Shown: positions 7,576 through 27,587 of the stretch, piece by piece
Layout of the letters: each line of letters begins with the position of its first letter
Position numbering within the stretch: the stretch's first letter is position 1
NCBI GenBank assembly: GCA_002698945.1
Contig: NZZV01000186.1
Location: 1-37,855 of the forward strand
Length of the DNA: 37,855 bases
Source of the DNA: Acidimicrobiaceae bacterium
Lineage (GTDB): Bacteria > Actinomycetota > Acidimicrobiia > Acidimicrobiales > Ilumatobacteraceae
Reading direction: 5' to 3'
The notes under the pieces: generated by a model
Told to the model about the DNA's origin: nothing
The model's database searches: none
The model's input: only the letters and a program-made list of their open reading frames with translations
Program-made: the position numbers and the translations under genes

Positions 7576-7601
7576 GTACCCGACGTGATCGGCGACCAAA
7601 C
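7576..7601 (-). promoter_or_regulatory. Sigma-B-type promoter of dps
   Basis: GTTT (7598-7601), 16-nt spacer, GGGTAC (7576-7581), 9 nt, ATG of dps. It matches the sigma-B/SigF consensus GTTT-N14/17-GGGTAT/C. Confidence 0.82.
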
Positions 7602-7628
7602 GGCGCGCGAACTCGACCCTGCCAAAGC

Positions 7629-8039
7629 TCAGGTGCCGGCGCGGGGCCGAAGCAACAACGTCGCGGTGACGACGAACGCGTCACCGTCGTGTTCGACCAC
7701 GAGTTCGTCGGCCAGGTGGCGGACGATGCCGAGGCCGCGACCGTTGAGGGCGTCAGGGTCGGCGACCCGCCACCTGGTCGCGGGACCGACGCCGGGCGTC
7801 GGCCCTCGACTGTCGACGGTCACGCTCAGGTCGTCGTTGCGTTGGCTGACCGCGATCTGGACCGTGTCGGCGACCCCGTGCTCGACGGCGTTGGTGAACA
7901 GTTCGCTCACGATCAGCTGCAGATCGTCGATCACCGCCGGGTCGTCGCACTCGGCGGCGAGCCGCACGAATCGACGGGCATGCGAGACCTGTGCCGGGTC
8001 CGCCTCCAACACGATCGATGTCGCTGCCCGTTCTCCCAC
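7629..8039 (-). CDS. RsbW-like anti-sigma factor / serine kinase (HATPase)
   Basis: 136 residues with all GHKL ATP-site boxes intact: N-box ELFTNAVEHG (about 57-66), G1 VTVDSRGP and G2 GRGLGIV. Such proteins bind a sigma-B-type factor or phosphorylate a STAS antagonist. It follows a LuxR-type response regulator and lies 9 kb from the sigma factor. The start is GTG 8039, 7 nt after TAACGT, whose first three bases are the stop codon of the upstream gene. It is therefore expressed both by read-through and from its own promoter. Unlike the HATPase next to the sigma factor, this one should be an active kinase. Confidence 0.88.
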   Translation of the reverse strand: MGERAATSIVLEADPAQVSHARRFVRLAAECDDPAVIDDLQLIVSELFTNAVEHGVADTVQIAVSQRNDDLSVTVDSRGPTPGVGPATRWRVADPDALNGRGLGIVRHLADELVVEHDGDAFVVTATLLLRPRAGT

Positions 8040-8046
8040 CATCACG

Positions 8047-8052
8047 ACGTTA
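8047..8052 (-). promoter_or_regulatory. -10 element of the RsbW-like gene, built on an upstream stop codon
   Basis: TAACGT on the minus strand, 7 nt before GTG 8039. Its TAA (8050-8052) is also the stop codon of the response-regulator gene. Confidence 0.55.
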
Positions 8053-8763
8053 CCGGTCCGCCCGCTCCGACGACAGCCGCTCGATGCGCGACGCCGGAGG
8101 CGCCAGGCCGTAGTCACCGGCGCGCAGGGCTGCCTGCGTACGGTTGTTCACCCCGAGCTTCTGGAAGAGCCGGCGGACGTATGTCTTGACGGTGTCGACC
8201 GACAGGTACAGCTCGCCGGCGATCTCGGCGTTCCGGTAGCCGAGCGCCAGCATCGCCAGCACCTCACGTTCGCGCATCGACAGCGGCTCACGGTTCGCGG
8301 CACCCGAGGCGCCTTCGGTCTGTGACAGTTCCACGTCATCTCCTTCAGCGACGCGCTCCAATGCGTCGACGAGGTCGGCGCCCGCCATCGATTTCAGGAT
8401 CACGGCCGAGACACCGGCCTCGCGTGCCTCCTCGAGGAACGCGTCGGTCGCGTCCCACGTGTACAGCACGATGTGGTCGACGAGCCCTTCCCGCACGATC
8501 TGCTCCGCGCGCTGGATCGCGTCGCGTCGTCCGGCGAACGTGTCGAACAGTGCGACGTCGGCGCGCCGATCGGGCGACGTGCCCACGTCGTGCTCGACGA
8601 TCGCGATCCGGTCGGAGAAGGGCTCGAGCATCGCGTGCAGTCCGCGCACGATGATCTCGTAGTCGTTCACGAGCGCGACTTCGAGGGGCAGTTCTCGGAA
8701 CGGATTCGTCCCGTTGCCGGTGTCGGCCGGTCGGGCTTCGTCGGAGCTGCGGTGCGGTGTCAT
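8050..8763 (-). CDS. LuxR-type response regulator
   Basis: 237 residues. An N-terminal receiver-like domain (about 27-145) begins EVALVNDYEIIV with acidic residues, has a candidate phospho-acceptor Asp in ADVALFD and the conserved Lys in VILKSMAG. A C-terminal GerE/LuxR helix-turn-helix spans about 172-230 (LSMREREVLAMLALG, SVDTVKTYVRRLFQKLGV). It binds DNA as a dimer; no histidine kinase is adjacent. Start ATG 8763 has GGAGAGGA about 11 nt upstream. A sigma-B-type promoter ends 33 nt before the start. It is the first gene of the operon with the RsbW-like kinase, so sigma-B would drive a regulator of its own circuit. Confidence 0.9.
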   Translation of the reverse strand: MTPHRSSDEARPADTGNGTNPFRELPLEVALVNDYEIIVRGLHAMLEPFSDRIAIVEHDVGTSPDRRADVALFDTFAGRRDAIQRAEQIVREGLVDHIVLYTWDATDAFLEEAREAGVSAVILKSMAGADLVDALERVAEGDDVELSQTEGASGAANREPLSMREREVLAMLALGYRNAEIAGELYLSVDTVKTYVRRLFQKLGVNNRTQAALRAGDYGLAPPASRIERLSSERADR

Positions 8764-8796: not shown

Positions 8797-8822
8797 GTAC
8801 CCACGCCCCGACGGAGCCAAAC
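8797..8822 (-). promoter_or_regulatory. Sigma-B-type promoter of the response regulator operon
   Basis: GTTT (8819-8822), 16-nt spacer, GGGTAC (8797-8802), then a 33-nt leader with a Shine-Dalgarno sequence before ATG 8763. Confidence 0.8.
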
Positions 8823-8914: not shown

Positions 8915-10168
8915 CTACATCCAGGGCCGGATCAGGTTGGCGGCACGTTCGAAGGCCTGCTGACCGGCCCAACGACTGCGCCAGCGCGCCGGGTCGATCT
9001 TCTCGCTGCGTTCGAGGTCGGCGTCGAAGTCGGCGTCGAGTTCCGCCGTGACGTCGCGGTCGAACGCGACGATGTCGACCTCTTCGTCGAGTGATGTCGA
9101 CCGTTGGTTGAAGTTGGCCGAACCGATCAGCGTGACCAATCCGTCCAGGGTCATGATCTTGGCGTGCAACATCGACGGCTGGTAGCACCAGATCTTGATG
9201 CCGTGGTCGAGGAGACGGTCGTAGACCGCTTCGCCGGCCAGCTGCACGAAGCGCTTGTCTGCTCCGGGTCCGGGCAGCAGGATCTGGACGTCGACGCCAC
9301 GCTCCGCCGCTCGGCAGAGACGCAGTATCAGGTCCTCGTCCGGCACGAAATACGCGCTGGTCAATCGGATCTGTTCGTCGGCGAGCTCGATCAGGGCCCG
9401 CACCGTCATCGAGATGTCGTTCCACCCCGGCTCGGCCGTCCCCTTGATGATCTGCACCGGCACGTTGCCGTGGTGCTCGTGGGCAGGGAAGTGGTCGAAG
9501 GCCGACTCGAACAGGACCTGTTCGGTCTCGATCCAGTTGTCGAGGAAGGCACTGCGGAGCCCGGCAACACCCGGACCCTGCAGACGCACATGTGTGTCGC
9601 GCCAGTTGCCTTCGCTGCGCCCGTCGCCCATCCATTGGTCGGCGATGCCCACGCCACCGGTGAAGCCGACGGCTTCGTCGCAGATCATCACCTTGCGATG
9701 TGTCCGGTGCGACGCTCGGAACGGGTGGCGCGGATCGAGCGGACGGAAGTAGCGGACATCGGCGCCGCCGGAGCGCATCAACTCGACGTTCTCCTGGTCG
9801 ATCGGCTTGGCGCCGACGCCGTCGAGCAGCACCCGGACCCGGACACCGTCGCGTGCCCGCTGGGCCAAACGCTCGGCGAACGTCGCGCCGATCTCACCGG
9901 CCCAGTACACGTACGTCAACAGGTCGATCGATCGATCGGCTGCGTCGATCGCCTCGAGCATCGCGGGGAAGATCTGATCGCCGTTGCGCAGGACGTCGAG
10001 GCGGTTGCCCGGACTGATGGGCACACCGTTGATCGCGGTGACGGTCCGACACCACGACTCGAGCCGTTCCACGGTCGACGCCGCGGTGCGGTCGTCGTCG
10101 GTGGATCCGGTCGTGCTCGCGTCGGGGCGGTCGGCCCTGCTCCTGTCACTGCTCGTGTCGGTGGTCAT
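8915..10168 (-). CDS. Phospholipase D family cardiolipin synthase-like protein
   Basis: 417 residues with two HKD motifs: HRKVMICDEAVGFTGG (about residue 163) and HAKIMTLDGLVTLIGSAN (about residue 336). These form one active site that transfers phosphatidyl groups, as in ClsB/YwiE-type cardiolipin synthases. There is no N-terminal transmembrane pair; instead an acidic Ser/Thr-rich 35-residue leader, so the protein is probably peripheral. Start ATG 10168 has AAGGGAA just upstream. A weaker sigma-B-type promoter lies 139 nt upstream, which would fit membrane remodelling under stress. A nuclease of the same superfamily cannot be fully excluded. Confidence 0.88.
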   Translation of the reverse strand: MTTDTSSDRSRADRPDASTTGSTDDDRTAASTVERLESWCRTVTAINGVPISPGNRLDVLRNGDQIFPAMLEAIDAADRSIDLLTYVYWAGEIGATFAERLAQRARDGVRVRVLLDGVGAKPIDQENVELMRSGGADVRYFRPLDPRHPFRASHRTHRKVMICDEAVGFTGGVGIADQWMGDGRSEGNWRDTHVRLQGPGVAGLRSAFLDNWIETEQVLFESAFDHFPAHEHHGNVPVQIIKGTAEPGWNDISMTVRALIELADEQIRLTSAYFVPDEDLILRLCRAAERGVDVQILLPGPGADKRFVQLAGEAVYDRLLDHGIKIWCYQPSMLHAKIMTLDGLVTLIGSANFNQRSTSLDEEVDIVAFDRDVTAELDADFDADLERSEKIDPARWRSRWAGQQAFERAANLIRPWM

Positions 10169-10307: not shown

Positions 10308-10333
10308 GTACCACCCGGGGCATCACGTCAAAC
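10308..10333 (-). promoter_or_regulatory. Weak sigma-B-type promoter of the cardiolipin synthase gene
   Basis: GTTT (10330-10333), 16-nt spacer, TGGTAC (10308-10313), one mismatch from GGGTAC. It lies 139 nt upstream of ATG 10168 in the 214-nt gap between genes, where nothing else stands out. Confidence 0.45.
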
Positions 10334-10382: not shown

Positions 10383-11372
10383 TCACGCGGGCCGTCCGGG
10401 CTCGGGTCGAGAGCGAGTCGATGCTGCGACGCCGCTCGAGGTCGTGCCGTTGCTGGTCGGGCGCAGACGCCGACCGAGGTACCACGGGACGTACTGGGCG
10501 ATCACACCGAAGACACCGAGTGCCAGGACGGCGAGGCGAGTCGCGGTGATCGCCGAGCCGACGTCGTCACGGCCCTCGCGGGCCAATCGCTCGGCGTCGA
10601 CGGCGGAGGTCCGGTACCGCTCGAGGAGGGACTGGCTCGAGTCGAGCGACGCTCGCGTTCGGTCGAGGTCGGCACGAACGGCGGACAGGTCACCGGACAG
10701 GTCCCCGGTGCCGTCGGCGAATGCCCCGAGTCGCTCTGCCAGCTCGCCGAGATCGCCACCGATGGGATCGAACGCCGCGCGCACGTCGGCGATCGCCTCC
10801 GGCAGCGGTGTCGCCGGGTCGTAATCGGGGCCGAGCGGGATCCGTGACGCCGCCCGCAATGCGCTGTCGATCGTCTCACCGAGCGACTCGACGGTCGCGA
10901 GGGCGGCATCGACGTCGTCGAAATCGTCGGGCAGGCGACCGGCGATCTCCGCAGCCGACGATGCGACGCCGCCGGTCGCCTCGGTCGTGGACGAGACGGT
11001 GTCGAGGGTTCGACCGAGGGTGTCGAGGCCGGCGTCCAGATCGGTGATCACCTCGTCGGCGACGTCGATCGTGTCGACGAGCGTCGCCGCCGCGTCCTCG
11101 CCGATCACCAGACTCTGTTCGAGGTTGCGGTCGAGGCTCGTCAGGAAGCGCCAGCCGACCACCGCCGCCACCACGGTGACGACGACGCCGAGCACCGCGA
11201 TCGCCTGCATCGCAGTGCCCGCTCGCGGGTCGACCGTCAGCACGGCTCGCTCGTCGCGCGAACTCGCATCCGAATCGTCCACGTACATCCGGCTGTTCCC
11301 CGCGCCGTTCGGCTGATCACCGGTCGGGTCACCAGTCGGGTCGCTGGTCGGGGCGGGCGGGTCGGAACTCAC
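10383..11372 (-). CDS. Two-TM protein with coiled-coil ectodomain, third gene of ABC exporter operon
   Basis: 329 residues. A Pro/Asp-rich cytoplasmic leader (1-50) is followed by membrane helix 1 (about 55-78), a roughly 190-residue extracytoplasmic region rich in Ala, Leu, Asp and Ser with heptad-like helices (LDAGLDTLGRTLDTV, DLDRTRASLDSSQSLL), helix 2 (about 280-300) and a basic tail. The topology resembles the ectodomain of YhgE/Pip-type proteins, but no family is recognised. The GTG start overlaps the stop of the permease (GTGA), so translation is coupled. I infer an accessory subunit bridging the exporter to the cell surface. Confidence 0.72.
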   Translation of the reverse strand: MSSDPPAPTSDPTGDPTGDQPNGAGNSRMYVDDSDASSRDERAVLTVDPRAGTAMQAIAVLGVVVTVVAAVVGWRFLTSLDRNLEQSLVIGEDAAATLVDTIDVADEVITDLDAGLDTLGRTLDTVSSTTEATGGVASSAAEIAGRLPDDFDDVDAALATVESLGETIDSALRAASRIPLGPDYDPATPLPEAIADVRAAFDPIGGDLGELAERLGAFADGTGDLSGDLSAVRADLDRTRASLDSSQSLLERYRTSAVDAERLAREGRDDVGSAITATRLAVLALGVFGVIAQYVPWYLGRRLRPTSNGTTSSGVAASTRSRPEPGRPA

Positions 11373-13042
11373 GCGTTGCCTTCCCGGCGCAGGCTGCGCG
11401 TGAGCGCCACGATGGCGCCCGCGCCGTACACCACCACGAGTGCCGAGAGGCCCACGATCGTCGCCTGCGCCGGTGGTTCACCGGCGAGCATGATGTCCTG
11501 CAGCCCGTCGATGCCGTACGTCACCGGGAGCAGCCAGGAGATGGCCTTGACCGGATAGCGCATCGTGTCGAGCGGCAGCACGAAGCCGCTGAAGAACAGG
11601 CCGGCGAGCAACGCCAGCATCGCGAACTGCACGGCTTGCGACTCGGTCTTGGACACGGTGGCGAGCACCATGCCGAGCGACAGCGACGACAGCAGCACGC
11701 CGAGCACGACCGCGGCGAGCCAGCCGATCGAGCCGGCGACGGCGACGCCCAGCGTGAACGTCGCCCCGCCGATCAGAACGACGGCGACGACGAGCCCCAC
11801 CAGCACATAGGCCAGGATCTTGCCGACCACGATCTCGATCGACGACAGCGGTCCGACCCGCATGAGCTCGAACAACCCCGTCCGCCGGTCGCGGACGAGC
11901 GAGAGGGCGGCGAAGGTCAATGCGAGGTGCTGCAGCAGCAGGGCGAGCGATGAGGGCGTGAAGTAGGCGGTCGGGGTGACGTCGGCGGGGCCGACGTTCT
12001 CCGTTTCGCTGCGGAACGGCCGCACCAACACGTCGGGGTCGAGCACGATCGTCTCCGACACCATCTCGCTGACGAGGGTGAGATCGGCCGCGAGTCGGTC
12101 GGCGTCGACGTCGTCGGAGCCGGCGTCGATCGCCGCCGCCGTGGCCGCTGCCTCGGCGACGGCGGCGCGGGTCTCGTCGAGTTGCGCACGGGTGTCCGGG
12201 TCCTCGGTCTCGAGCTGACCGAGCACGACGGCGGTGCCGTCCAAGGCAGCGGTGAGCTGCGACAGGTCCGCCGTCGCCATCTCGGCCGCCGACTCGGGAC
12301 TCGCGCCGGCGTCGGCAGCGAGCTCGGCGAACCGGTCACCGAACTGTTCGGCGGAGCGCAACTCGGCTTGGGCGTCGGCGGCCACCGTCGACAGCACGGT
12401 CGCATTGACCTCCTGGATCGCGAGGCGGGCCGCGACCTCGACCGCACCCGCCTGGATCGGGTCGATCTCTTCGTGCAGTACCCGAATGACCGCCCGTTCG
12501 CCACCGAGCACCGCACTGATCGGATCGTCGGGGAACACGACGACGACGTCGACGTCGCCGGCCTCGAGCATGCGTTCGGCCTCGGCCTCGGTCTCGACGA
12601 GTCCCTCCGATTGGATGAACTCGTCGAGCTGGTCTTCGTACCCGGACAGGACGTCGGCGTAGATCGAGTCCTCACCGCCGACGAAGACGGCCCGCTTCTC
12701 GAGCGAGTCGTCCCCGTACGCGAGACCGAACAGGACGAGCAGCGCGAACGGACCGATCACGAGCAACGCCAGCAGACGCGGCTGTCGAACGATCTCGACG
12801 ACTTCCTTGCGAACGAACGCGAACGACCTGATCACGACCGCCCACGGGGCGCGAACCGGTCGCAGGGTCGCCGCGATACGTCGGGATCGCTCGGGGTCGC
12901 GGCCGGAGTCGGCGGGTTCGCGACCGTCACGGCGTCCGCTGTCGTTGCGATCGTCCCGGTCGTCCCGGTCGTGCTGAACAGGCTGAGCACGGTCGGGCGT
13001 CGGGTCGACCGGTTCGGGGCGGGAGTCGTGTCGGAGGTTCAT
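11369..13042 (-). CDS. ABC-2 type transporter permease with large ectodomain
   Basis: 557 residues. A charged, Asp/Arg-rich N-terminus (1-60) is followed by TM1 (about 88-108), an extracytoplasmic domain of about 240 residues, and five C-terminal TM helices containing the ABC-2 signature region (LSLGMVLATVSKTESQ, FFSGFVLPLDTMRYPV, LLPVTYGIDGLQDIM). The fold is that of NatB/YhaP/DrrB-like exporters. It pairs with the ATPase encoded just upstream, with ATGA overlaps at both ends of the gene. The substrate is unknown; the family exports drugs, lipids or peptides. The operon has a sigma-B-type promoter ahead of the ATPase gene. Confidence 0.9.
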   Translation of the reverse strand: MNLRHDSRPEPVDPTPDRAQPVQHDRDDRDDRNDSGRRDGREPADSGRDPERSRRIAATLRPVRAPWAVVIRSFAFVRKEVVEIVRQPRLLALLVIGPFALLVLFGLAYGDDSLEKRAVFVGGEDSIYADVLSGYEDQLDEFIQSEGLVETEAEAERMLEAGDVDVVVVFPDDPISAVLGGERAVIRVLHEEIDPIQAGAVEVAARLAIQEVNATVLSTVAADAQAELRSAEQFGDRFAELAADAGASPESAAEMATADLSQLTAALDGTAVVLGQLETEDPDTRAQLDETRAAVAEAAATAAAIDAGSDDVDADRLAADLTLVSEMVSETIVLDPDVLVRPFRSETENVGPADVTPTAYFTPSSLALLLQHLALTFAALSLVRDRRTGLFELMRVGPLSSIEIVVGKILAYVLVGLVVAVVLIGGATFTLGVAVAGSIGWLAAVVLGVLLSSLSLGMVLATVSKTESQAVQFAMLALLAGLFFSGFVLPLDTMRYPVKAISWLLPVTYGIDGLQDIMLAGEPPAQATIVGLSALVVVYGAGAIVALTRSLRREGNA

Positions 13043-14190
13043 CGCGCCGCCTCCATGTCGTGGTCGGAGCGGTCGCCGGCGGCGGCCGGCCGGTCGAGGC
13101 GGTCGGGCTCATCCGTGGCGCCGGACGACGTTCGGTGTCGCTGGACGACCCGGAGGAATGCCTCGTCGTAGTCGACGAGGTGCTCGTCGATCTCGACGAT
13201 CGACGCGTCGCTGCGGTGGAGCGCATCGCCGATCAGCTGCATCGCGTGACCGGCGTCGTCGACGACGAACCGCAGACCGGTCGGGCCGGTGCGCTCGATC
13301 TGGCCGAGTACGAACGGTTCGTCGGACAGCTGCGTCAGCTCCGCATCGGTCAACGGACGGTCGAGCTGGACGTCGACGACCTCGCCGTCGAACGCCGCCC
13401 GACGTAGGTTCGTGGGCGTGTCGAGCAGCAACAGCTCGCCGTCGGACAGCAGCCCGACGAGATCGCACTGCCCGGCCTCGCCGACGTACTGGGTCGTCAC
13501 GACGAGGGAACGTCCGGCGTCGGCGACGTCGTGGAACCGTGTCCACAGCTTGTCGCGCAGGATCGGGTCGATGCCGGCGGTGGGTTCGTCGAGGAAGACG
13601 ACGTCGGGGTCATGGACGAACGCGGCGGCGAGCGCCAGCCGGCGCTGCATCCCGCCCGACGCGTCGACGACCCGCTTGGAGCGATGATCGGACAGCTCGA
13701 CCCAGTCGAGCAGCTGGTCGAGCCGATCCCGACGACGGAACCGCATGCCGTACATCGATGCATGGAAGCTCAGGTTCTCACCGAGTGAGAGCTCGGGGAA
13801 CAGCGCTGGGGTCTGGGGGAGGTAGCCGATCCGGGCTCGCTGCTTGGCGGTCAGCGAGCACGACTCGGTGCCGAAGACGGTCGCGGAACCCGCCGTCGGA
13901 CGCAACAGCCCGGTCATCAGACGGACCGTCGTGGTCTTGCCGCATCCGCTCGGCCCGATCAGGCCGACGATGGTGCCGGGCTCGACCTCGATGTCGACGC
14001 CCTTGATCACCTCGTCGTCACCGAACGATTTGCGCAGTCCCTCCGTACGGACGCCGCCGGATCGGGTTCTGGCAGGAGCCGCGTCGCGGCTCGTCGGACC
14101 CGTCTTCGTACCCGTCCTCGTCGGACCCGTCGTCGTACCCGTCGCGGTCACGGGCGCGACGTCCTGGTCGGTCGCGTCTGCTTCGGTCAT
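13039..14190 (-). CDS. ABC transporter ATP-binding protein
   Basis: 383 residues. Walker A GPSGCGKTT is at 79-87, the Q-loop YLPQ, an unusual signature SGGMQRRLALA, Walker B VVFLDEP and a switch region follow; the C-terminal 90 residues form a regulatory domain typical of ABC-2 exporters. The first 45 residues are a low-complexity Thr/Gly/Pro repeat encoded by a degenerate DNA repeat. Start ATG 14190 is chosen over ATG 14208 because GAGGAG lies 8 nt upstream of it. The gene leads the operon with the permease and the coiled-coil protein. The Gly-Gly-Met signature is found in related drug-resistance ATPases. Confidence 0.92.
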   Translation of the reverse strand: MTEADATDQDVAPVTATGTTTGPTRTGTKTGPTSRDAAPARTRSGGVRTEGLRKSFGDDEVIKGVDIEVEPGTIVGLIGPSGCGKTTTVRLMTGLLRPTAGSATVFGTESCSLTAKQRARIGYLPQTPALFPELSLGENLSFHASMYGMRFRRRDRLDQLLDWVELSDHRSKRVVDASGGMQRRLALAAAFVHDPDVVFLDEPTAGIDPILRDKLWTRFHDVADAGRSLVVTTQYVGEAGQCDLVGLLSDGELLLLDTPTNLRRAAFDGEVVDVQLDRPLTDAELTQLSDEPFVLGQIERTGPTGLRFVVDDAGHAMQLIGDALHRSDASIVEIDEHLVDYDEAFLRVVQRHRTSSGATDEPDRLDRPAAAGDRSDHDMEAAR

Positions 14191-14295
14191 GGGGATCTCC
14201 TCATGCATGCTTCGATCTCACGTTCCCTGGTGTCGCCGGCCGGCCGTCACCGACCTCGTCGGCACCCGGTGCCCCGGCCCGGGCGCCGATGGTCC

Positions 14296-14321
14296 GTACC
14301 CAACGCGCTCGGCGCGCAAAC
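14296..14321 (-). promoter_or_regulatory. Sigma-B-type promoter of the ABC exporter operon
   Basis: GTTT (14318-14321), 16-nt spacer, GGGTAC (14296-14301), 105 nt before ATG 14190. The 314-nt gap 14191-14504 holds this promoter, the opposite-facing promoter at 14446 and short GC palindromes (for example around 14261-14285), and no credible gene. Confidence 0.75.
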
Positions 14322-16109: not shown

Positions 16110-16883
16110 TCAGTCGAGGCCGGCTTCGGCCTCGTCGACCTCGTCCTCGCCGACGTACTCGTCTCGCAAGATGGCGAACGCCTTGCGCAGGAGTCGCGAC
16201 ACGTGCATCTGTGACACGCCGACACGCTCGGCGATCTCCGACTGGGACAGGTCGTCGTAGAAGCGCAACCGAACGATCTCCTGCTCGCGTTCGGGCAGGG
16301 AACTGATCAGTTGCTCGACGACCGCCTGGTTCTCGACGTCGCCGAACCCGCGATCACCGACCGACGTCGCGGCGTTGCGGTCGCTGGCGCCGTCGTCGTC
16401 GGGTCCCGGGTCGATGGTGCCGACCCGACGTGCGGTGCCGGCGGCCAGACCCGTGATGACGTCGTCCCGGTCGAGGTCGAGGTACTCGGCGACCTCGTCG
16501 ACGGACGGCGAGCGACCGAGCTGCACCGAGAGCTGATCGTTCGCCCGGCGGACCGCGACGTGAAGTTCCTTGGCGCCCCGTGGCACCTTGACCGCCCAGG
16601 TCGCATCACGGAAGTGCCGCTTGAGTTCCCCCTCGATCGTTCGTCCGGCGAACGCCGAGAACGGCACACCGACGTCGAGGTCGAACCGGTCGACCGCCTT
16701 CACCAGCGCGAGCATCGCGACCTGCTCCAGATCGTCATCACGCCCGACGCCAGCGTTGTAGCGGCGCGCGATGTGGATCGCCAGACCCATGTACTCCTCG
16801 ACGATCCGGTTGCGGACGCGGCGACGACCCGTTCGCCGGAGTTCGAGGAACAGATCGTCGACGTCGGACATGGCAGCGGTCAC
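16110..16883 (-). CDS. Sigma-70 factor of the sigma-B/SigF family
   Basis: 257 residues. Region 2 includes DLEQVAMLALVKAVDRFDL, followed by a region 3 segment (VPRGAKELHVAVRRAN) and region 4 with the helix-turn-helix QSEIAERVGVSQMHVSRLLRKA. There is no region 1.1 or sigma-54 feature. The layout is that of SigB/SigF/RpoF stress sigma factors, which recognise GTTT-N14/17-GGGTAT/C promoters, and such promoters are abundant nearby. Start GTG 16883 overlaps the stop of the anti-sigma gene (GTGA), implying coupled translation; ATG 16871 is an alternative. Expected control is by sequestration by the HATPase partner and release through the STAS protein. Confidence 0.93.
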   Translation of the reverse strand: MTAAMSDVDDLFLELRRTGRRRVRNRIVEEYMGLAIHIARRYNAGVGRDDDLEQVAMLALVKAVDRFDLDVGVPFSAFAGRTIEGELKRHFRDATWAVKVPRGAKELHVAVRRANDQLSVQLGRSPSVDEVAEYLDLDRDDVITGLAAGTARRVGTIDPGPDDDGASDRNAATSVGDRGFGDVENQAVVEQLISSLPEREQEIVRLRFYDDLSQSEIAERVGVSQMHVSRLLRKAFAILRDEYVGEDEVDEAEAGLD

Positions 16884-17251: not shown

Positions 17252-17257
17252 CGGGGC

Positions 17258-17524: not shown

Positions 17525-17535
17525 GGGTGATCGAC

Positions 17536-18070: not shown

Positions 18071-18076
18071 TATCCT
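18071..18076 (+). promoter_or_regulatory. -10 element of the phosphatase gene
   Basis: TATCCT, 11 nt before ATG 18088; a very short leader is expected. There is no sigma-B-type element here. Confidence 0.4.
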
Positions 18077-18087
18077 TCGGTTCGACT

Positions 18088-19752
18088 ATGCGCAGAGGTC
18101 CGACCCGGCAGTCCTCACTGCGTACACGTCTCGGCATCATCACCGTCGTTTTCCTGGTGATGGTGCTCGTCGCCGTCGGACTGTCGGCACTGATGATCCG
18201 GTCCTGGGATCGGACGATGAGCGCCCGGGGAGAAGCGCGTGCCGCGGTCGCCGACGTCGCCCAACTCCGGCTGTCGTTCAGCGACCAGGAGGCGGGGATT
18301 CGCCTCTACCAGCTGACGGCCGACGACGAGGCGGTCGATGCCTATCGAGCCGCTGCCATCGTCGAGGTCGACATCGTCGATCGGCTACGTGAGCGCGACC
18401 TGGACGTCGCCGGTTTCGACATGCTCGTCACGCGCGCCGTCGACAGCGGTGAGCGGTGGCGCACCGAGGTCGCCGAGCCGATCCTGGCCGACGCGCCCGA
18501 CGTCTCCGAGACGATCGCCCGCCAACGGTTCGACGAGGTGCGTGTCGCGCTCGACGATCTCCAGGCCGCCGTCGTCGGCCAGACCGACGAGCTCGCCGAT
18601 CGTGCCCGACGCATGCAGCGGAGCGTGGTCGGCGTGCTGTTCCTCAGTGCGCTCGCGGCCGTCTTCGGCACGGCGCTCGCCGCCTCGCTGTTCCGGCGGT
18701 GGGTGCTCCAGCCCCTGTCGCAGATCAGCAGCGCGGCGCGAGCGCTCAGCCACGACGACACCACTCCCCTGCCGCACTTCGACGCACCCGAACTCCAGGA
18801 CGTGAGCGAGGCGGTCGGTCAGCTCCAACGAGCGTTGCGTTCGGCGCGCGACGAAGCGGTCGCCGCGTTGCACGGCATCGAGCAGAGCGCCGTGCTCGCC
18901 ATCCAGGTCCGGTCCGAGTTGGCCGACGAGATCGGCGAGATGCCCGACGGATGGGCCGCCCACACCCTGCTCGCCCCCGCGGAGGGCGTGGTGGCCGGTG
19001 ACTGTTTCGACATCGGCCTGCTCGACGCGCGACGCCTCTACCTCGTCTTGATCGACGTCACCGGACACGGTGCGTCGGCGGCACTCAACGCACTCAAGGC
19101 CAAGTCGCAGCTCCGTGCGGCGCTGCGGGCCCGCCTGTCGCCCGGCGCGGCACTCGACTGGTTGTCTCGCGAGATGATCAAGGACGACCACGCCGACCTG
19201 TTGACGGCCTCGGTGATCGTCGTCGATCTCGACTCGGGGCGCCTCACCTACGCGAACGCCGGACATCCGGCTCCGATCCTCACCGACGGCGAGACGTCGA
19301 TCGTGCTCGATCGTTCGGGGCCGCTGATCGGTGCGTTCCCCGCCAGGTGGTCGACGCACGAGGCCGAGATCCCCCCGACGTGGGCGTTGCTCACGTACAC
19401 CGATGGGCTGACCGACACGCTCGGTGAGCATCGCGAACGGTTCGGCGACGAGCGGCTGATCGAGTGCCTCACCACGACCGACCCGGTCGAGCTCCTCGAT
19501 CGCATCCACGCCGCGACCGACTCGTTCCGGGTCGGCGACCGGTGCGACGACGTCACCGCGATCGTCGTCCGACGCTCGTCTCCCGACGAGCCGAGCACGT
19601 GCCCGTCCGACGACCACGTCGATCATAACGAGCACCACGAGGTCACGACCGATCCACACGAAGCGGTAGCGACCGATCAACACGGCGCCGAGGCGCTCCA
19701 ACCACACGCGGCGCTGCCGCCCGACCGAGGAAACGGTACGATCACGCCATGA
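18088..19752 (+). CDS. Membrane SpoIIE/PP2C-type serine phosphatase with HAMP domain
   Basis: 554 residues. TM1 (about 17-38), an extracytoplasmic four-helix sensor-like region (about 40-175), TM2 (about 178-200), a HAMP linker (about 200-255), and a PP2C/SpoIIE catalytic domain (about 290-510). The metal-site motifs are GDCFDIG, LIDVTGHG and RCDDVTAIVVR. RsbU/RsbP-type enzymes dephosphorylate the STAS antagonist, releasing sigma-B. The STAS gene follows with an ATGA overlap, so this is an upstream sensor of the module. The last 45 residues form an odd His/Asp/Glu-rich tail (DDHVDHNEHHE and further His) not typical of the family. Confidence 0.93.
   Translation: MRRGPTRQSSLRTRLGIITVVFLVMVLVAVGLSALMIRSWDRTMSARGEARAAVADVAQLRLSFSDQEAGIRLYQLTADDEAVDAYRAAAIVEVDIVDRLRERDLDVAGFDMLVTRAVDSGERWRTEVAEPILADAPDVSETIARQRFDEVRVALDDLQAAVVGQTDELADRARRMQRSVVGVLFLSALAAVFGTALAASLFRRWVLQPLSQISSAARALSHDDTTPLPHFDAPELQDVSEAVGQLQRALRSARDEAVAALHGIEQSAVLAIQVRSELADEIGEMPDGWAAHTLLAPAEGVVAGDCFDIGLLDARRLYLVLIDVTGHGASAALNALKAKSQLRAALRARLSPGAALDWLSREMIKDDHADLLTASVIVVDLDSGRLTYANAGHPAPILTDGETSIVLDRSGPLIGAFPARWSTHEAEIPPTWALLTYTDGLTDTLGEHRERFGDERLIECLTTTDPVELLDRIHAATDSFRVGDRCDDVTAIVVRRSSPDEPSTCPSDDHVDHNEHHEVTTDPHEAVATDQHGAEALQPHAALPPDRGNGTITP
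19737..19742 (+). promoter_or_regulatory. -10 element for leaderless STAS gene
   Basis: TACGAT then 6 nt, then ATG 19749. It lies inside the last codons of the phosphatase gene, so the STAS gene may be made separately as well as by coupling. Confidence 0.5.
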
Positions 19753-20051
19753 CCCAGCCCGAGGACCTCTTGACGATCGAGACGTCCGACCACGGCCTCC
19801 GCGCCGTGGGCGAGATCGACGCACACACGGCGCCCACGTTGGCCGCCGCGATCGACGCTGCCGCACCCAATCCGCGACTCGACCTCTCCGGGGTCGAGTT
19901 CGTCGACTCCAGCGGCCTCCGCGTCCTGATCGACGCCCACCAGCGCATGCAGGAGGCGGGCGGGAAGCTGACGATCACCACGCCGTCGCCGGCGGTCCGA
20001 CGCCTGTTCGAAATCAGCGGCGTCGACGACTACCTGGCCGTCGACGGCTGA
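19749..20051 (+). CDS. STAS-domain anti-anti-sigma factor
   Basis: 100 residues, the usual RsbV/SpoIIAA size. The conserved phosphorylation motif reads VEFVDSSGLRVL, with the candidate Ser at about residue 54-55. In the dephosphorylated state it would bind the anti-sigma HATPase and free the sigma factor. Its ATG overlaps the stop of the phosphatase gene and has its own leaderless -10. It could be paired with the active kinase at 7629-8039 or with the degenerate HATPase next to the sigma gene. Confidence 0.92.
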   Translation: MTQPEDLLTIETSDHGLRAVGEIDAHTAPTLAAAIDAAAPNPRLDLSGVEFVDSSGLRVLIDAHQRMQEAGGKLTITTPSPAVRRLFEISGVDDYLAVDG

Positions 20052-20078: not shown

Positions 20079-21440
20079 TCACGCGCTCGACGATGCGTCG
20101 GGGAGTTCCGACAGCAGCTTCGAAAGTGCGCTCGCGAACACGTCGCCCATCGTCGGGAACGGGTACATCGACCGAACGAGTCGGGCGACCGGGACCTCAC
20201 CGTCGATGGCGACGATGATCGCGTGCACCAGTTCGTCGAACGACGGACCGATGCCGTGGGCCGCCACGAGCCGGCCGGTCGATCGGCTGGCCGCCAGCGC
20301 GAGCGCACCGTCCTGCTCATCGGTCGCTGCCCGGGCGGAGCTGTCGGCGACCCCGACCGCCACCCAGACGACGTCGCCGTCGTCGACCGTCTCGGCATGG
20401 CTCGGCCCCACCGTCATCATCGGCGGCAGCGTGAACATGCAGGCGGCGTCCACGACGTCGTCGAACCGGCGAGTGCCGGACCCGGTGAGGTGGTCGGCGA
20501 CCACACGACCGTGATGGTTCGCGGCGTGGGTGTATTGCGAGCGGCCGACGACGTCACCGATGGCCCACACCGATCCCTCGCACCGCACGCGGCCGCTGTC
20601 GTCGACGGGGAGTGGCGACTCCGGATCGAGCCCGACGTGTTCGAGGTGCAGGTCGTCGAGTTGTGGTCGCCGTCCGACGGCGAGGAGCAGGCGGTCGGCG
20701 CGGAACTCGCGGCGGTCGTCGGTGGAGAGGGCCACGCCGGTCCCGTGCGGCGACACCGCGACCGGTCGGGTGCCGAGCTCGAGGTCGGTGCCGGTGTCGC
20801 GGACGGTCTGCTCGACCGCCGCGATCACATCGGGATGCGACGTCTCCACCAGGTGCTCGTTCGGCTCGAGCAGGACTACCTCGGTGCCGAACGACGCGAA
20901 CAGCCGCGCGAACTCGCACCCCACGACACCGCCACCGGCGATCAGCAGCCGTTCGGGGGCTTCGGCAGCCCGGAGCGCATCAGCACTCGTCCACACGCGG
21001 TCGGTCCACACCGGGTCGGCGAGATCGTCCAAGCCATCGAGATCGGGGACGACCGCTGTCGCCCCCGTCGCCACCACGATGTGGTCGGCCTCGACGGTCA
21101 GCGACTCGGACACGACCCTGCCGGGGCCGGCGAACGCCGCCCGTTCGCGCACCAACTCGACGTCGCCCGCGTCGAGCAGTGATTCGGCGTGCCGAGTGTC
21201 GTCACGATGGTCGATCAGTGCTCGGCGCCGCGACGATGCCGTCGACCAGGCGCGCCCGAGCGCTCCGTCGTGAAGGAGTGCCTTGCTCGGGATGCATGCG
21301 TCGTACGGACAGTCGCCGCCGACCAACGACGGCTCGAAGACGACGACGGACGGGGTGCCGTCGAGCGCATTGACCAACGAGGTCGTCGCCGAACCGGCGC
21401 CGATCACGACGATGTCAGCGGATCGCGAACGCCGTGCCAT
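20079..21440 (-). CDS. FAD/NAD(P) disulfide-reductase-like flavoprotein
   Basis: 453 residues. An N-terminal FAD Rossmann motif (GAGSATTS from residue 14), a CPYDAC redox pair (Cys44, Cys49), a second nucleotide motif GGGVVGCEFA, VWAIGDV near 310, and a dimerisation domain. It belongs to the dihydrolipoamide dehydrogenase/mercuric reductase family. The C-terminal catalytic His-Glu dyad of that family is not present: the equivalent segment reads MYPFPTMGDVF. It may reduce a low-molecular-weight disulfide or a quinone rather than lipoamide. It lies 57 nt after the zinc-binding protein gene and may be in one transcript with it, with no promoter visible of its own. Confidence 0.85.
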   Translation of the reverse strand: MARRSRSADIVVIGAGSATTSLVNALDGTPSVVVFEPSLVGGDCPYDACIPSKALLHDGALGRAWSTASSRRRALIDHRDDTRHAESLLDAGDVELVRERAAFAGPGRVVSESLTVEADHIVVATGATAVVPDLDGLDDLADPVWTDRVWTSADALRAAEAPERLLIAGGGVVGCEFARLFASFGTEVVLLEPNEHLVETSHPDVIAAVEQTVRDTGTDLELGTRPVAVSPHGTGVALSTDDRREFRADRLLLAVGRRPQLDDLHLEHVGLDPESPLPVDDSGRVRCEGSVWAIGDVVGRSQYTHAANHHGRVVADHLTGSGTRRFDDVVDAACMFTLPPMMTVGPSHAETVDDGDVVWVAVGVADSSARAATDEQDGALALAASRSTGRLVAAHGIGPSFDELVHAIIVAIDGEVPVARLVRSMYPFPTMGDVFASALSKLLSELPDASSSA

Positions 21441-21497: not shown

Positions 21498-21872
21498 CTA
21501 CAGCGCATCGGTGTCGAGGGCGGCGACGACGAGTGCGTCGTCCTCGGACGCCTCGGGGCCGAACCCGAGCACGACCGAACCGTGGGCCTCACAGTTCGGG
21601 CAAGCGGCCGCGACGACCCACAGTTCGTCGGACGGATCGGAAGCGCCCTCGAGTCGACGCGTCAGGGCCGGGTCGAGGCGCGCTGCGGACACCGTCTCGC
21701 GGCAGGTCGTGCACATCAGTTCGGCGTCCGGCCGGACGACGAAGGAGCTGGTGTACCCGTCGGCCTCGATCTCGTCGAGCACGGCGGTCAGGGTGGTGTT
21801 GTCAGAAGGGACGCCGGGTCGGCTCGGTGAACTCGGTGCGTCGTCGACGATCTCTCGGTCTGGCTCGTTCAT
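21498..21872 (-). CDS. Small zinc-ribbon protein, unknown
   Basis: 124 residues. An acidic N-terminus (1-40) is followed by two CxxC pairs, CTTC and CPNC, about 35 residues apart, then an acidic tail. A single treble-clef or zinc-ribbon fold is likely. Start ATG 21872 has GAGG about 11 nt upstream. It lies between the sigma-B-type promoter gene at 22314 and the flavoprotein, all on the minus strand with gaps of 82 and 57 nt, so it may be part of that operon. No function is assigned. Confidence 0.65.
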   Translation of the reverse strand: MNEPDREIVDDAPSSPSRPGVPSDNTTLTAVLDEIEADGYTSSFVVRPDAELMCTTCRETVSAARLDPALTRRLEGASDPSDELWVVAAACPNCEAHGSVVLGFGPEASEDDALVVAALDTDAL

Positions 21873-21954: not shown

Positions 21955-22314
21955 TCACGCTGCCGAGACGCTGGTCTCGTGTGGGCCGATCGGGCCGAGC
22001 AGGTCTTCCACGACCGATCGAGCGGCCCAATCGTCGTGCGCGGCGAACTCGTATCCATCGTCGCGCACCCAGAGGGTCTTCAGCGGTTCGGCGTTGGCGG
22101 TTCGGCGATCGTTGGCGATCGCCCACAGACCGGTGGCGAGGTGCCGGAGTCGTTCCGGGACCACACCATTGGTCTGGATCTCGTCACGGAACGAACGGAA
22201 CCAGAGCGCGAGCGTGTGCCGGTTCGTCCAGAGCAGCAGCGCGATGGCCGTGCGACCGAGGGGGAAGATGAGCTTGCGTACGGTTCGGGTGAACGCCGCC
22301 AAAGTCGTGAACAT
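21955..22314 (-). CDS. Unknown protein with sigma-B-type leaderless promoter
   Basis: 119 residues. An N-terminal hydrophobic/amphipathic stretch (about 15-45, RKLIFPLGRTAIALLLW) is followed by a charged, helical middle and a short acidic end. It could be membrane-associated. No family is recognised. Start ATG 22314 is fixed by the promoter GTTT-N16-GGGTAC ending 9 nt upstream. The small zinc protein and flavoprotein genes follow downstream, possibly as one stress operon. The frame extends upstream through the promoter, but that part is rejected. Confidence 0.7.
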   Translation of the reverse strand: MFTTLAAFTRTVRKLIFPLGRTAIALLLWTNRHTLALWFRSFRDEIQTNGVVPERLRHLATGLWAIANDRRTANAEPLKTLWVRDDGYEFAAHDDWAARSVVEDLLGPIGPHETSVSAA

Positions 22315-22323
22315 GGCGCCCGC

Positions 22324-22349
22324 GTACCCGGGTGACGATGTCGACAAAC
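22324..22349 (-). promoter_or_regulatory. Sigma-B-type promoter of the 21955-22314 gene
   Basis: GTTT (22346-22349), 16-nt spacer, GGGTAC (22324-22329), 9 nt, ATG 22314. Confidence 0.82.
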
Positions 22350-24612: not shown

Positions 24613-24783
24613 TCAGTTCTTGTCGAGCTTGTCGCGGACCGAGTCCACGGCGTCGTCGAACTTCTCCTTGATCTTGCCGCTGGTCTCGTCGGCTTCGCCC
24701 TCGGCCTGCATTTCTCGGTCGCCGGTGAGGTCACCGACCGCCTTCTTGGCACGGCCCTTGGCCTGATCGAATTCTCCGCTCAT
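24613..24783 (-). CDS. CsbD-family stress protein
   Basis: 56 residues with the CsbD signature: MSGEFDQAKGRAKKAVGDLTG, with the Gly-Lys/Lys-Gly spacing and an acidic, helical C-terminus. CsbD of Bacillus is a sigma-B-controlled general stress protein, and here the gene has a sigma-B-type promoter 49 nt before the start. ATG 24783 has GGAG about 10 nt upstream. Its molecular role is not known in the family. Confidence 0.93.
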   Translation of the reverse strand: MSGEFDQAKGRAKKAVGDLTGDREMQAEGEADETSGKIKEKFDDAVDSVRDKLDKN

Positions 24784-24832
24784 GGTGCGAACTCCTCTCG
24801 TGTCGTCGACCGGTTTGTCGAACGTCCGAGCC

Positions 24833-24857
24833 GTACCCGCCCCACGGCACTCGAAAC
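24833..24857 (-). promoter_or_regulatory. Sigma-B-type promoter of csbD
   Basis: GTTT (24854-24857), 15-nt spacer, GGGTAC (24833-24838), a 49-nt leader, ATG 24783. It is divergent from the promoter at 24935. Confidence 0.8.
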
Positions 24858-24934: not shown

Positions 24935-24960
24935 GTTTCGGTCCCGTTCGCTCTGGGAAC
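24935..24960 (+). promoter_or_regulatory. Sigma-B-type promoter of the SDR-DUF2867 gene
   Basis: GTTT (24935-24938), 16-nt spacer, GGGAAC (24955-24960), 9 nt, ATG 24970. The -10 differs from GGGTAC at one base; the geometry is identical to dps and favours ATG 24970 over ATG 24961. Confidence 0.7.
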
Positions 24961-24969: not shown

Positions 24970-26544
24970 ATGATCGCAGCCGGCCAGCACCGCCCCGACG
25001 GCGCGCCCCTCGTGCTGGTGCTCGGAGCGACCGGATACGTCGGCGGGCGGCTCGTTCCCGAACTGCTGGCCCACGGCCATCGCGTCCGCTGTCTGGTCCG
25101 CACCCCGCCCACCGGACTCCCCTGGGCCGACGACGTCGATCTGGTGCAGGGTGACCTGACCGACCCGCCGTCGCTGGAGGGTGCCTTCGACGACGTCGAC
25201 ACGGTCGTGTACCTCGTCCACTCGCTGAACGAGGACGGCTTCGAACGCACCGAGCTCCGTTCGGCCGCGAACGTGCGCGACGCGGCCGACGCAGCCGGGA
25301 TCGAACACATCGTCTACCTCAGCGGTCTCGGCGACGACGACGAGGATCTCTCGCCCCACCTGCGTTCACGACACGAGGTCGGGGCCGAACTCGCCCGCGG
25401 TGCCGTGGCGGTCACCGAACTGCGCGCTGCGATCATCCTCGGCGCCGGATCCGCCTCGTTCGAGATGTTGCGCAGCCTGACCGAGGTCCTCCCGGCGATG
25501 ATCGCGCCACGGTGGGTGTCGTCCACGCTCGTCCAACCGATCGCCATCGGTGACGCCCTCCGCTATCTCCGCTGTGCGATCGAACGCGGCCCCGCCGCAC
25601 AGCACGACAGCGAGCCCGACGAGGATCACGACTCGACGCATCACGACGTCGTCGAGATCGGCGGCCCGGATCAACTCACCTATCGCGACCTGATCCAGCT
25701 CTACGCCGAGGTGGCGAGGTTGCCTCGCCGACGGATCATCCCAGTCCCGTTCGTCACGCCCCGTCTGTCGACGCACTGGGTGAACCTCGTGAGCCCACTG
25801 CCGCGGCAGCTCGCGAAGTCGTTGATCGACAGCCTCCGCAACGACGTCGTCGTCACCGACGACAGCGCCTTCGAACTGAGCCGCCACATCCCGCTCACCG
25901 CGCGGGCCGCGATCGAGACCGCCATCTCGGCCATCCAGGACCTCGAGATCCCGACCCGCTGGTCGGGCGTGACCGACGAGGAGCGGGCCGGCCGACCCCG
26001 CCCGTGGGACCCCGAATGGGCGGGCGGCACGGTGTACCAATACATCACGAACATCGAGATCGACGCGTCACGGGATTCGGCCATGCGCACCGTGCGCGGG
26101 ATCGGTGGCGAGCGGGGCTGGTACGGGTTCGCGCTCTTGTGGGCGATCCGGGGCGCGCTCGACAAGCTGGTCGGTGGCGTCGGCCTGCGCCGCGGGCGTC
26201 GTCACCCCGACGAGATCGCCGTCGGTGAGGCACTCGACTTCTGGCGCGTCGACGCGATGGAGCCCGATGTGTTCCGGTTGCGTGCCGAGATGAAGCTCCC
26301 CGGCGAAGCCTGGCTCGAGTGGACGATGCACGAACGCCCGGAGGGGCGGACCTGCATCGAACAGAAGGCCCGCTACGTACCGCGTGGCCTGTTCGGCCGG
26401 CTCTACTGGTGGCCGCTCTGGCCCGTGCACGCCGTGCTGTTCCCCGTCATGTTGCGCCGGATCGGGCGCGAGGCCGAACGCCTCGACGCCCTCGAATCGG
26501 CGCATTCCGAGGCAACCGACGGCGATACCGCGCTCGCCGGCTGA
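24970..26544 (+). CDS. NAD(P)-binding atypical SDR fused to DUF2867
   Basis: 524 residues. An N-terminal extended/atypical SDR domain has the NAD(P) motif GATGYVGG (19-26) and continues to about residue 330. A C-terminal DUF2867 domain follows (VYQYITNIEIDASRDSAM, EAWLEWTMHERPEG, GRLYWWPLWPVHAVLFP), related to SRPBCC-type folds. The protein resembles UDP-glucose epimerase/complex-I-NDUFA9-like oxidoreductases of unknown substrate. It is probably sigma-B controlled. The two-domain architecture is common in actinobacteria, but a function is not established. It converges on an SDR gene with 47 bp between stops. Confidence 0.85.
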   Translation: MIAAGQHRPDGAPLVLVLGATGYVGGRLVPELLAHGHRVRCLVRTPPTGLPWADDVDLVQGDLTDPPSLEGAFDDVDTVVYLVHSLNEDGFERTELRSAANVRDAADAAGIEHIVYLSGLGDDDEDLSPHLRSRHEVGAELARGAVAVTELRAAIILGAGSASFEMLRSLTEVLPAMIAPRWVSSTLVQPIAIGDALRYLRCAIERGPAAQHDSEPDEDHDSTHHDVVEIGGPDQLTYRDLIQLYAEVARLPRRRIIPVPFVTPRLSTHWVNLVSPLPRQLAKSLIDSLRNDVVVTDDSAFELSRHIPLTARAAIETAISAIQDLEIPTRWSGVTDEERAGRPRPWDPEWAGGTVYQYITNIEIDASRDSAMRTVRGIGGERGWYGFALLWAIRGALDKLVGGVGLRRGRRHPDEIAVGEALDFWRVDAMEPDVFRLRAEMKLPGEAWLEWTMHERPEGRTCIEQKARYVPRGLFGRLYWWPLWPVHAVLFPVMLRRIGREAERLDALESAHSEATDGDTALAG

Positions 26545-26591
26545 GACGAGCACCAGGCCGCATGGCCGGCCCGCCGGGCCTCAGGCCCTGT

Positions 26592-27440
26592 TCATCCCAC
26601 GTCGTCGAAGTTCATCGACTCGGACAGATCGAGGTGGGCCGCGATCTCCGCTTCGAGCGTCTCGATCTTGCGCCGAGCGAGTTGCACCACATCGGACCCG
26701 GCGATGAAGCGGGTCGGTGGCGGCGACATCGCAGCCAGGCTGACGAGGGCGGCAGCGAGCTTGGCGGGGTCACCGGCCTGGCGGCCGTCCTGCGACGCCC
26801 ACCACGCGCGCTGGGCGGCGCTGCGTTCGCGGTAGTCGTCGATGTCGAGCTCCGGCCACACGAGTGACTCCGGGCCGGCGAGACCGGTCCGGAAGAAGCC
26901 CGGGTTCACGATCATCGTGTGGATGCCGAACGGGGCGACCTCCTGCGCCAGCGCACCCATCCAGCCTTCCAGCCCGGCCTTCGCAGCGGCATACACCGAC
27001 GAGTAGGCGAAGCCCATCAGGCCCGCACCGGAGGAGATCGCGACGACCAAACCCGCACGGCGCCGCCGCATCACCGGGAGTACGGCGCGCGTCACGTGCA
27101 TCGGACCCGACAAGTTGACCGCGAGCTGCTGGTCGACCTGGTCGACCGACATCTCCTCGAAGAAGCCCTTGAACGACGCACCGGCGCTGTTGACGACGAC
27201 ATCGATCCTGCCGAAGCGTCGGTCGGCGGCGGCCACGGCGCGGTGAGCGGCCGCGGGGTCGGTGACGTCGAGCTCGACGACGAGCACGTCGTCGGACGCC
27301 GCGATGTCGTCGGCGATGGTCTCGGTCCGGCGGGCCGTCGCGACCACGCCATGGCCGGCGCCGAGGGCGGCCCGGACGAACGACTCGCCCATCCCACGGT
27401 TGGCCCCGGTGATCATCCACACTTGCTGCTCGGACTCCAC
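26592..27440 (-). CDS. Classical SDR-family oxidoreductase
   Basis: 282 residues. The TGANRGMGE motif (from about residue 12) binds NAD(P), an NSAG motif follows, and the catalytic YAAAK is at about 155-159 with the preceding Ser. It reduces or oxidises an unknown alcohol/ketone. The start at GTG 27440 has GAGGGAG 5 nt upstream; GTG 27446 is an alternative and the further upstream extension is low-complexity and rejected. No sigma-B-type element is found on its strand. Confidence 0.88.
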   Translation of the reverse strand: MESEQQVWMITGANRGMGESFVRAALGAGHGVVATARRTETIADDIAASDDVLVVELDVTDPAAAHRAVAAADRRFGRIDVVVNSAGASFKGFFEEMSVDQVDQQLAVNLSGPMHVTRAVLPVMRRRRAGLVVAISSGAGLMGFAYSSVYAAAKAGLEGWMGALAQEVAPFGIHTMIVNPGFFRTGLAGPESLVWPELDIDDYRERSAAQRAWWASQDGRQAGDPAKLAAALVSLAAMSPPPTRFIAGSDVVQLARRKIETLEAEIAAHLDLSESMNFDDVG

Positions 27441-27491
27441 GGTCACTCCCTCGTCGCGTCGACGCCAGCTTCGCACCTGCCGCGGCGCACG

Positions 27492-27568
27492 TCGACCGGC
27501 ACGACCGGCGAGTCGACCGGCGAGACGACCGATGCGTTTGGCCGATGCGTTCGGTCGATGCGTTTGGC
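27492..27568. repeat. 12-bp and 13-bp tandem repeats ahead of a sigma-B-type promoter
   Basis: A degenerate run of 12-bp CGACCGGCGAGW units (about 27493-27529) passes into three contiguous 13-bp copies of CGATGCGTTTGGC (27530-27542, 27543-27555 with two changes, 27556-27568). The GTTT in the third copy is the -35 of the promoter of the 27597 operon. Confidence 0.7.
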
Positions 27569-27587
27569 CGGTGGCGGCGTCGGGAAC
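27562..27587 (+). promoter_or_regulatory. Sigma-B-type promoter of the SRPBCC operon
   Basis: GTTT (27562-27565), 16-nt spacer, GGGAAC (27582-27587), 9 nt, ATG 27597. Confidence 0.7.

Follow-up and report, generated by a model that had tools for sequence, protein, structure and literature searches.

Genes and promoters of the locus

The sequence analysed here, hereafter the window, is a 37,855-nt contig (NZZV01000186.1, assembly GCA_002698945.1) of an Acidimicrobiaceae bacterium, and belongs to a 4.36-Mb draft genome that is 82% complete. Judged by its sequence the window is placed in the Ilumatobacter group, and the closest named relative of its sigma protein is found in the metagenome-assembled Ilumatobacter sp. 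HKST-UBA13 (94% identity). Nine promoters of the SigB type lie around a sigma factor gene in this window, an arrangement that very probably represents a general-stress locus, that is, a SigB-type regulon with its control genes and nine local targets, about half of them predicted to be leaderless.

The gene for the SigB/SigF-type sigma factor (16113–16871, minus strand) stands amid the promoter cluster, as had been proposed in the original prediction. Its product carries sigma-70 regions 2, 3 and 4 (Pfam Sigma70_r2, r3 and r4), falls just short of the cutoff of the NCBIfam model TIGR02980 and has 8x6g and 1l0o as its best PDB matches. It is directly preceded, with an 8-nt gap, by the gene for an RsbW/UsfX-like anti-sigma factor (16880–17251, minus strand), whose GTG start was chosen from sequence comparison. 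The anti-sigma gene product alone gave no Pfam or NCBIfam family match, including none to the Pfam HATPase families; a 14-member profile built around it, however, matches RsbW 6m36 (E 4.9e-12) and the anti-sigma-F RsbW structures 8jzt/8ih8 (E about 6e-10). The locus further encodes an RsbU-like SpoIIE-type phosphatase (18088–19752, plus strand; SpoIIE E 6e-39, HAMP and CHASE3 below their cutoffs) and an RsbV-like STAS anti-anti-sigma factor (19749–20051, plus strand; STAS_2 E 2.1e-20, TIGR00377 above cutoff), so that the full partner-switch set of phosphatase, STAS antagonist and RsbW-type protein is present. A second RsbW-like kinase is encoded as well (7629–8117, minus strand, start uncertain; HATPase_c_2 E 1.2e-16, RsbA and RsbW models well below cutoff).

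Six exact copies of GTTT-N15/16-GGGTAC had been reported at 7576, 8797, 14296, 17415, 22324 and 24833, and all were found there, with N16 in five of them and N15 in one (24833–24857). The three one-mismatch sites are likewise present: TGGTAC at 10308–10333 (minus strand), by reading of the sequence, and GGGAAC at 24935–24960 and 27562–27587. Checking of the positions in the window showed that all nine promoters point at a start codon.

On the minus strand, the promoter at 7576–7601 precedes a Dps ferritin-like protein gene (7021–7566; Ferritin E 2.2e-24), with the start codon 9 nt past the −10 element and a predicted leaderless transcript. The promoter at 8797–8822 is leadered and serves a LuxR-type regulator gene (8050–8763; GerE E 7.1e-19), after which comes the second RsbW-like kinase gene. 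Leadered promoters are also found at 10308–10333, upstream of a cardiolipin synthase-like gene (8915–10168; PLDc_2 E 4e-40, TIGR04265 268 bits against a cutoff of 290), at 14296–14321, ahead of an ABC exporter operon (10383–14208) encoding an ABC ATPase, an ABC-2 permease and a protein of 329 aa that matches no family, and at 24833–24857, ahead of a CsbD-like protein gene (24613–24795; CsbD E 2.5e-16). The last minus-strand promoter (22324–22349) is predicted to give a leaderless transcript of a 119-aa protein gene (21955–22314; no Pfam or NCBIfam family). On the plus strand, the promoter at 17415–17440 has a start codon 9 nt past its −10, again predicted leaderless, and leads into a 24-residue hydrophobic peptide frame (17450–17524), with a 129-aa protein gene (17527–17916; no family above cutoff, counterparts in relatives G001 and G004) likely on the same transcript. 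The two GGGAAC promoters have their start codons at the same distance, an ATG in the case of the NAD(P)-binding plus DUF2867 protein gene (24970–26544), the other belonging to an 89-aa protein gene (27597–27866; no family above cutoff in Pfam or NCBIfam). The placing of dps and csbD behind the motif, which had been claimed before, is thus borne out by the family matches.

Clustering of the motif and conservation in relatives

The exact motif gave zero matches in 100 dinucleotide shuffles of the window, and the window holds eight GTTT-N14/17-GGGWAY sites where 0.12 are expected. The genome-wide motif scan that the original prediction had proposed was run and returned 16 exact sites, 6 of them in the window, against 3 for the reversed-pattern control (binomial P for at least 6 of 16 in 17,282 b, 3e-11). 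With the GGGWAC form, 21 sites were found, 8 of which fall within the 20 kb of the cluster, and the reversed-pattern control gave 4 (P for at least 8 of 21 in 20,012 b, 3.8e-14). Since the draft is 82% complete, these genome-wide counts are lower bounds. Among the 13 GGGWAC sites outside the window, 11 stand ahead of a plausible gene start and 2 (L010, L019) do not; the targets there include a Usp gene (family match) as well as ferredoxin-like and hemerythrin-like genes (by eye).

The earlier observation is thus real and the reading as a SigB-type local stress regulon is supported by the motif cluster, its conservation and the SigB/SigF-like sigma factor, except that its scope is not purely local, given the 11 further gene-start sites elsewhere. 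Similarly, the sigma gene does lie amid the cluster, but the notion of a regulon built around its own sigma factor has to be qualified in that no such promoter was found ahead of the sigma operon. The conserved sites around the sigma gene and the co-occurrence described below suggest that the sigma factor recognises the GTTT-N-GGGTAC promoters, and from the sequence data we infer that the individual genes are members of the regulon.

We compared the sigma-gene regions of eight relatives (G001, G009, G002, G004, G005, G021, G023 and G017) and one other stretch, from G050, mapping the window proteins onto these regions to set orthologous genes. Each of the nine window promoters recurs in one or more relatives ahead of the orthologue of its gene, and G001, a genome in one contig that is 99% complete, has counterparts of all nine. 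The cores are kept between species while spacers and flanks have mostly diverged, with the exception of the 119-aa gene, whose spacer is largely kept too. The luxR promoter is kept in G001 and G004; the ABC operon promoter (L083:195), the 119-aa gene promoter, the DUF2867 gene promoter (with the 9-nt spacing) and the 89-aa gene promoter (with a spacing of 10 nt) in G001; the csbD promoter in G001, G005 and G009; and the peptide promoter with its 9-nt geometry in G001, G004, G005, G009 and G017. The TGGTAC variant is the weakest of the nine by sequence, yet GTTT-N16-TGGTAC is also found ahead of the cardiolipin synthase gene in two relatives (L083:3968 in G001 and L088:4354 in G004). The core is not frozen, however, as the counterparts of the dps promoter differ in their −10 element (GGGTAT in G004 and GGGTAG in G001, both with 9-nt spacing); in G002, the stretch covered ahead of dps shows the −10 alone (GGGTAG, at 9 nt).

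Such a cluster might also arise if motif copies had been spread by duplication of one segment, in which case it would reflect repeats and not selection for a regulon. The locus does hold two RsbW-like and two SDR-type genes, but the spacers and flanks of the nine sites are unlike one another (by eye) and the cores persist between species; duplication is hardly credible on these grounds and was set aside.

Additional sites were noted in the relatives at two places. SigB-type sites aim at a DUF4397 gene in G004 (L088:7993) and G009 (L084:14171), and the scan of the window shows none there. In G004 (L088:9849–9886) and G001 (L082:18343, minus strand) an extra SigB-type promoter, followed by an ATG at 9 nt, is located between the sortase and sigma genes. 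Only 3 nt separate these two genes in the window, so a small gene at that place would be absent here.

Promoter-to-start distance

The start codon lies exactly 9 nt past the −10 element at five of the nine window promoters (7576, 17415, 22324, 24935 and 27562). Among the 13 sites elsewhere in the genome, the distance is 9 nt at six (five ATG, one GTG), 10 nt at one and 11 nt at one, with GTG, and three sites are leadered. Genome-wide, with the three leadered GGGWAC sites of the window included, 11 of the 21 sites have the 9-nt spacing (P 3.9e-12), where an ATG or GTG would fall at any one given distance with a probability of 0.029, as estimated from a 420-kb sample of G001 that provided the background rates. 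With exactly 9 nt between the −10 and the start codon, the transcript should begin at or next to that codon, and about half of the regulon promoters should accordingly produce leaderless mRNAs. This layout had been missed in the original prediction and is an amendment to it.

The same distance stands out in a survey of 61 genomes of the family. It is the commonest spacing, accounting for 45 of the at least 133 sites tallied as having an ATG no more than 34 nt away; 10 nt follows with 13, no other distance exceeds 6 and the remaining 75 sites are spread out. A direct search for the 9-nt form in these genomes likewise gave 45 sites. The base before the ATG is C in 43 of the 45, against 2536 of 7750 ATGs in the G001 sample. 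Transcription usually starts at a pyrimidine-purine step, and the natural reading of the geometry is a start on the A of the ATG, one base either way being possible. In Streptomyces coelicolor, the starts of SigB-family promoters are mostly 8–11 nt past the −10, by our reading of a table in PMC8346170. The proteins behind the 9-nt sites include Usp (family match) and Dps-, ferredoxin- and superoxide dismutase-like proteins (by eye). A 51-aa DUF6131 protein (L002:1336–1491, minus strand) also has a SigB-type promoter of the leaderless form in this genome, as does, judged by sequence resemblance, its counterpart in G023 (L125).

Alternatively, the start codons at 9 nt could be unused, with leadered transcripts translated from a downstream start. 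All start codons are predictions, and the frame that follows the 9-nt ATG is very short in two genomes (10 aa in L140, 28 aa in L141). Against this, the spacing is sharply peaked at 9 nt, the conservation of the 24-residue peptide begins at the 9-nt methionine and the C-A step is found at the expected start, which makes a downstream start unlikely and favours leaderless transcripts.

Housekeeping genes provide a second comparison. In the G001 sample, a TANNNT lies 6–7 nt ahead of a candidate start in 44 of 240 called genes, and the distances peak sharply there; housekeeping genes, too, thus seem to have leaderless starts in this organism. SigB sites are leaderless in 11 of 18 or 11 of 21 cases (18 being the SigB sites without L001 that were counted as gene-preceding) and, among 162 genes that are the first of their unit, housekeeping TANNNT-N6/7 occurs at 25 (Fisher P 6e-5 and 3e-4, respectively), but the denominators are unlike and we therefore make no claim that SigB targets are more often leaderless than other genes. 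A like-for-like housekeeping set was sought with TTGA-N17-19-TANNNT, which gave only 3 sites in 420 kb and was useless.

Co-occurrence with the sigma factor and wider distribution

With a sigma match at E<=1e-30 as the definition, 17 of the 61 family genomes are sigma-positive. These hold 40 of the 9-nt sites (in 12 genomes), against 5 (in 4 genomes) in the 44 sigma-negative ones (Fisher P 4.3e-6), a test that is confounded by the smaller average size of the sigma-negative genomes (2.4 versus 4.5 Mb). Expressed per Mb, the 9-nt form amounts to 0.53 in sigma-positive and 0.047 in sigma-negative genomes, a much larger difference than that of the other spacings (0.78 and 0.48). One sigma-negative genome, G019, has a 9-nt site ahead of a superoxide dismutase-like gene (L131, by eye), so some sigma-negative genomes may use a more distant sigma. 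In 149 genomes of the phylum, 68 matches to the 9-nt form were spread over 31 genomes, compared with 20 matches in 18 genomes for a 12-nt control. The excess comes from the own family (20 versus 0, seven genomes) and from family f45 (16 versus 0, five genomes of 5–7.5 Mb), the rest giving 32 versus 20. The excess over the control in f45 suggests that the wiring may predate the genus.

Besides the size confounding, a number of observations weigh against a leaderless SigB-type regulon under this sigma factor. Four of the nine window promoters are leadered, 5 of the 17 sigma-positive genomes are without a 9-nt site, and in G023, which has the sigma, only 1 of 12 sites among the matches listed has the 9-nt spacing. 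The S. coelicolor range of 8–11 nt means that the start could be one base off here. Clustering is weaker beyond the closest genomes, with no site near the sigma gene at L090 (G021) and two at L092 (G017). Finally, the sigma protein scores 228.2 bits against the TIGR02980 (SigBFG) cutoff of 234.35, 6 bits short, which is why it is called SigB/SigF-type; it reaches 234.2 against a cutoff of 372 with the SigF model NF005514, and is also below cutoff in the narrower SigB/SigF/SigG models listed. Moreover, with the genome 82% complete, a second SigB-type sigma could be missing from the draft.

This last point bears on whether the sites, while of SigB type, are read by a different SigB/SigF paralogue, the central sigma not being the master. 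Some relatives have several matches to the sigma (two in G002, three in G009), and S. coelicolor paralogues have promoters in common, according to parts of PMC8346170. In its own genome the sigma nevertheless stands alone at E<=1e-30, and G001 likewise has one match and keeps all nine promoters, which renders control by a paralogue quite improbable and points to the central sigma.

Start of the rsbW-sigB operon

With a loose pattern, no SigB-type site aimed at rsbW-sigB was found in the divergent regions of the window, G001, G004 and G005. On the basis of these four regions a SigB-type promoter for the operon was rejected; a TANNNT stands 6 or 7 nt ahead of the GTG instead. In the window, a housekeeping-type −10 (TATGTT) and a 6-nt spacer (17252–17263, minus strand) are directly ahead of the rsbW GTG, the equivalents in G001 and G004 being TATCTT and TAGGTT, again with N6-GTG, whereas G005 has TACGAT, N7 and then an in-frame GTG. 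The operon thus has a conserved housekeeping-type TANNNT start and is probably leaderless.

Two further elements were seen upstream of the phosphatase gene. A near-perfect inverted repeat (17995–18034) between the 129-aa and SpoIIE genes is likely a terminator parting the SigB-driven transcript from the phosphatase gene; at the corresponding place G001 and G004 have, by eye, hairpins that are alike but altered in sequence. At 18071–18090, TATCCT lies 11 nt ahead of the SpoIIE ATG (10 nt in G001 and G004), which looks like a housekeeping-type start that gives this gene, too, a very short leader.

The 24-residue peptide

Directly after the promoter at 17415 comes a 24-codon frame, a length below the usual limits of gene finders. 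Counterparts of 22–24 aa exist in five other genomes, each with a matching promoter and spacing, and the six aligned sequences share 14 invariant columns, including the first five residues. A second copy, at another place in the G009 genome, has the same protein sequence as that of the window and is again behind a 9-nt SigB-type promoter. The peptide has no Pfam or NCBIfam match above cutoff; because of its hydrophobic residues it is called a membrane peptide, and probably lies in the membrane. A search of 198 genomes of the class at E<=0.001 gave matches in 3 genomes, each belonging to the own genus. Of the six matches, two are weak (E about 8e-4 and 9e-4), the one in G000 lying within a DUF6131 protein. 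The peptides of G004, G005 and G017 were found by position, these genomes not being among those listed in the class-wide search.

Proposed mechanism and comparison with known systems

In the resting state, RsbW would hold the sigma factor. Stress would activate the SpoIIE phosphatase, resulting in dephosphorylation of the STAS protein, which in this form would take RsbW off sigma. The freed sigma would then fire the nine local promoters and about eleven elsewhere, and at about half of them RNA polymerase would begin at the first base of the start codon or beside it, yielding leaderless mRNAs whose translation would bypass Shine-Dalgarno pairing. A feedback arm may be provided by the sigma-driven LuxR-RsbW2 operon. 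More tentatively, and with somewhat less than even confidence, we suggest that in Ilumatobacter-group bacteria the general-stress sigma is wired to leaderless translation through the fixed 9-nt distance at about half of its promoters, such that turning sigma on would shift translation to ribosomes without Shine-Dalgarno contact, one product being a conserved stress membrane peptide of 22–24 residues that annotation likely misses.

What is new, in a regulon of otherwise known type, is the fixed distance from promoter to start, together with the housekeeping-type start at the sigma operon and the small peptide. Bacillus subtilis SigB is alike in having RsbW, an RsbV-like STAS protein and a SpoIIE-type phosphatase. 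Its sigma operon has a SigB-type promoter, where none was found here, and it is not known for the leaderless geometry seen in the window. Its consensus is GTTTAA-N12-14-GGG(A/T)A(A/T), as quoted in PMC8346170. The Mycobacterium rsbW/usfX-sigF system also has the anti-sigma gene directly ahead of the sigma gene and several RsbW homologues, with a SigF promoter given as GGWWT-N16-17-GGGTAY in the portions consulted of PMC7693655. In M. smegmatis, rsbW has a SigF-independent promoter directly upstream and a SigF-dependent one further up (same source). The SigF-dependent promoter also serves the operon there, while none was found here in the divergent region examined; here, in addition, the SpoIIE and STAS genes are in the locus and nine target promoters lie around the sigma gene. 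S. coelicolor SigB-family regulons share the GNNT/GTTT and GGGTAY-type promoters (excerpts of PMC8346170), and the SigF-dependent sspA has a published transcription start at its start codon (PMC4282423, in the section seen). The S. coelicolor comparison is by literature; in family f40 (8–10 Mb genomes), the 9-nt form is found in 0 of 3 genomes.

Leaderless transcripts make up 24% of those in M. smegmatis, according to a passage of PMC6448022, and the passages compared on the mycobacterial leaderless transcriptome do not link leaderlessness to a SigB/SigF-type regulon. Among the top-ranked papers listed, judged by titles and abstract openings and with subscription papers mostly outside, none announces a leaderless SigB/SigF regulon or an Ilumatobacter sigma study. 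The locus bears on the question of why bacteria retain leaderless mRNAs. In M. tuberculosis, translation of a leaderless reporter was more stable under stress, as reported in the abstract of PMC8485053, suggesting steadier translation, and the leaderless layout may keep stress genes translatable under such conditions. The locus offers a clean test, with one sigma and both leadered and leaderless targets within 20 kb. Furthermore, the promoter pattern could help to find stress genes and very small proteins in bacteria with little genetics.

Other features of the window

The 119-aa gene is followed on the same strand (minus) by a gene at 21498–21866 and by one for a pyridine nucleotide-disulphide oxidoreductase (20079–21440). 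At 31000–31800, between the DUF1003 and S9 peptidase genes, similar peptides recur in a minus-strand frame, which suggests a degenerate array of DNA repeats.

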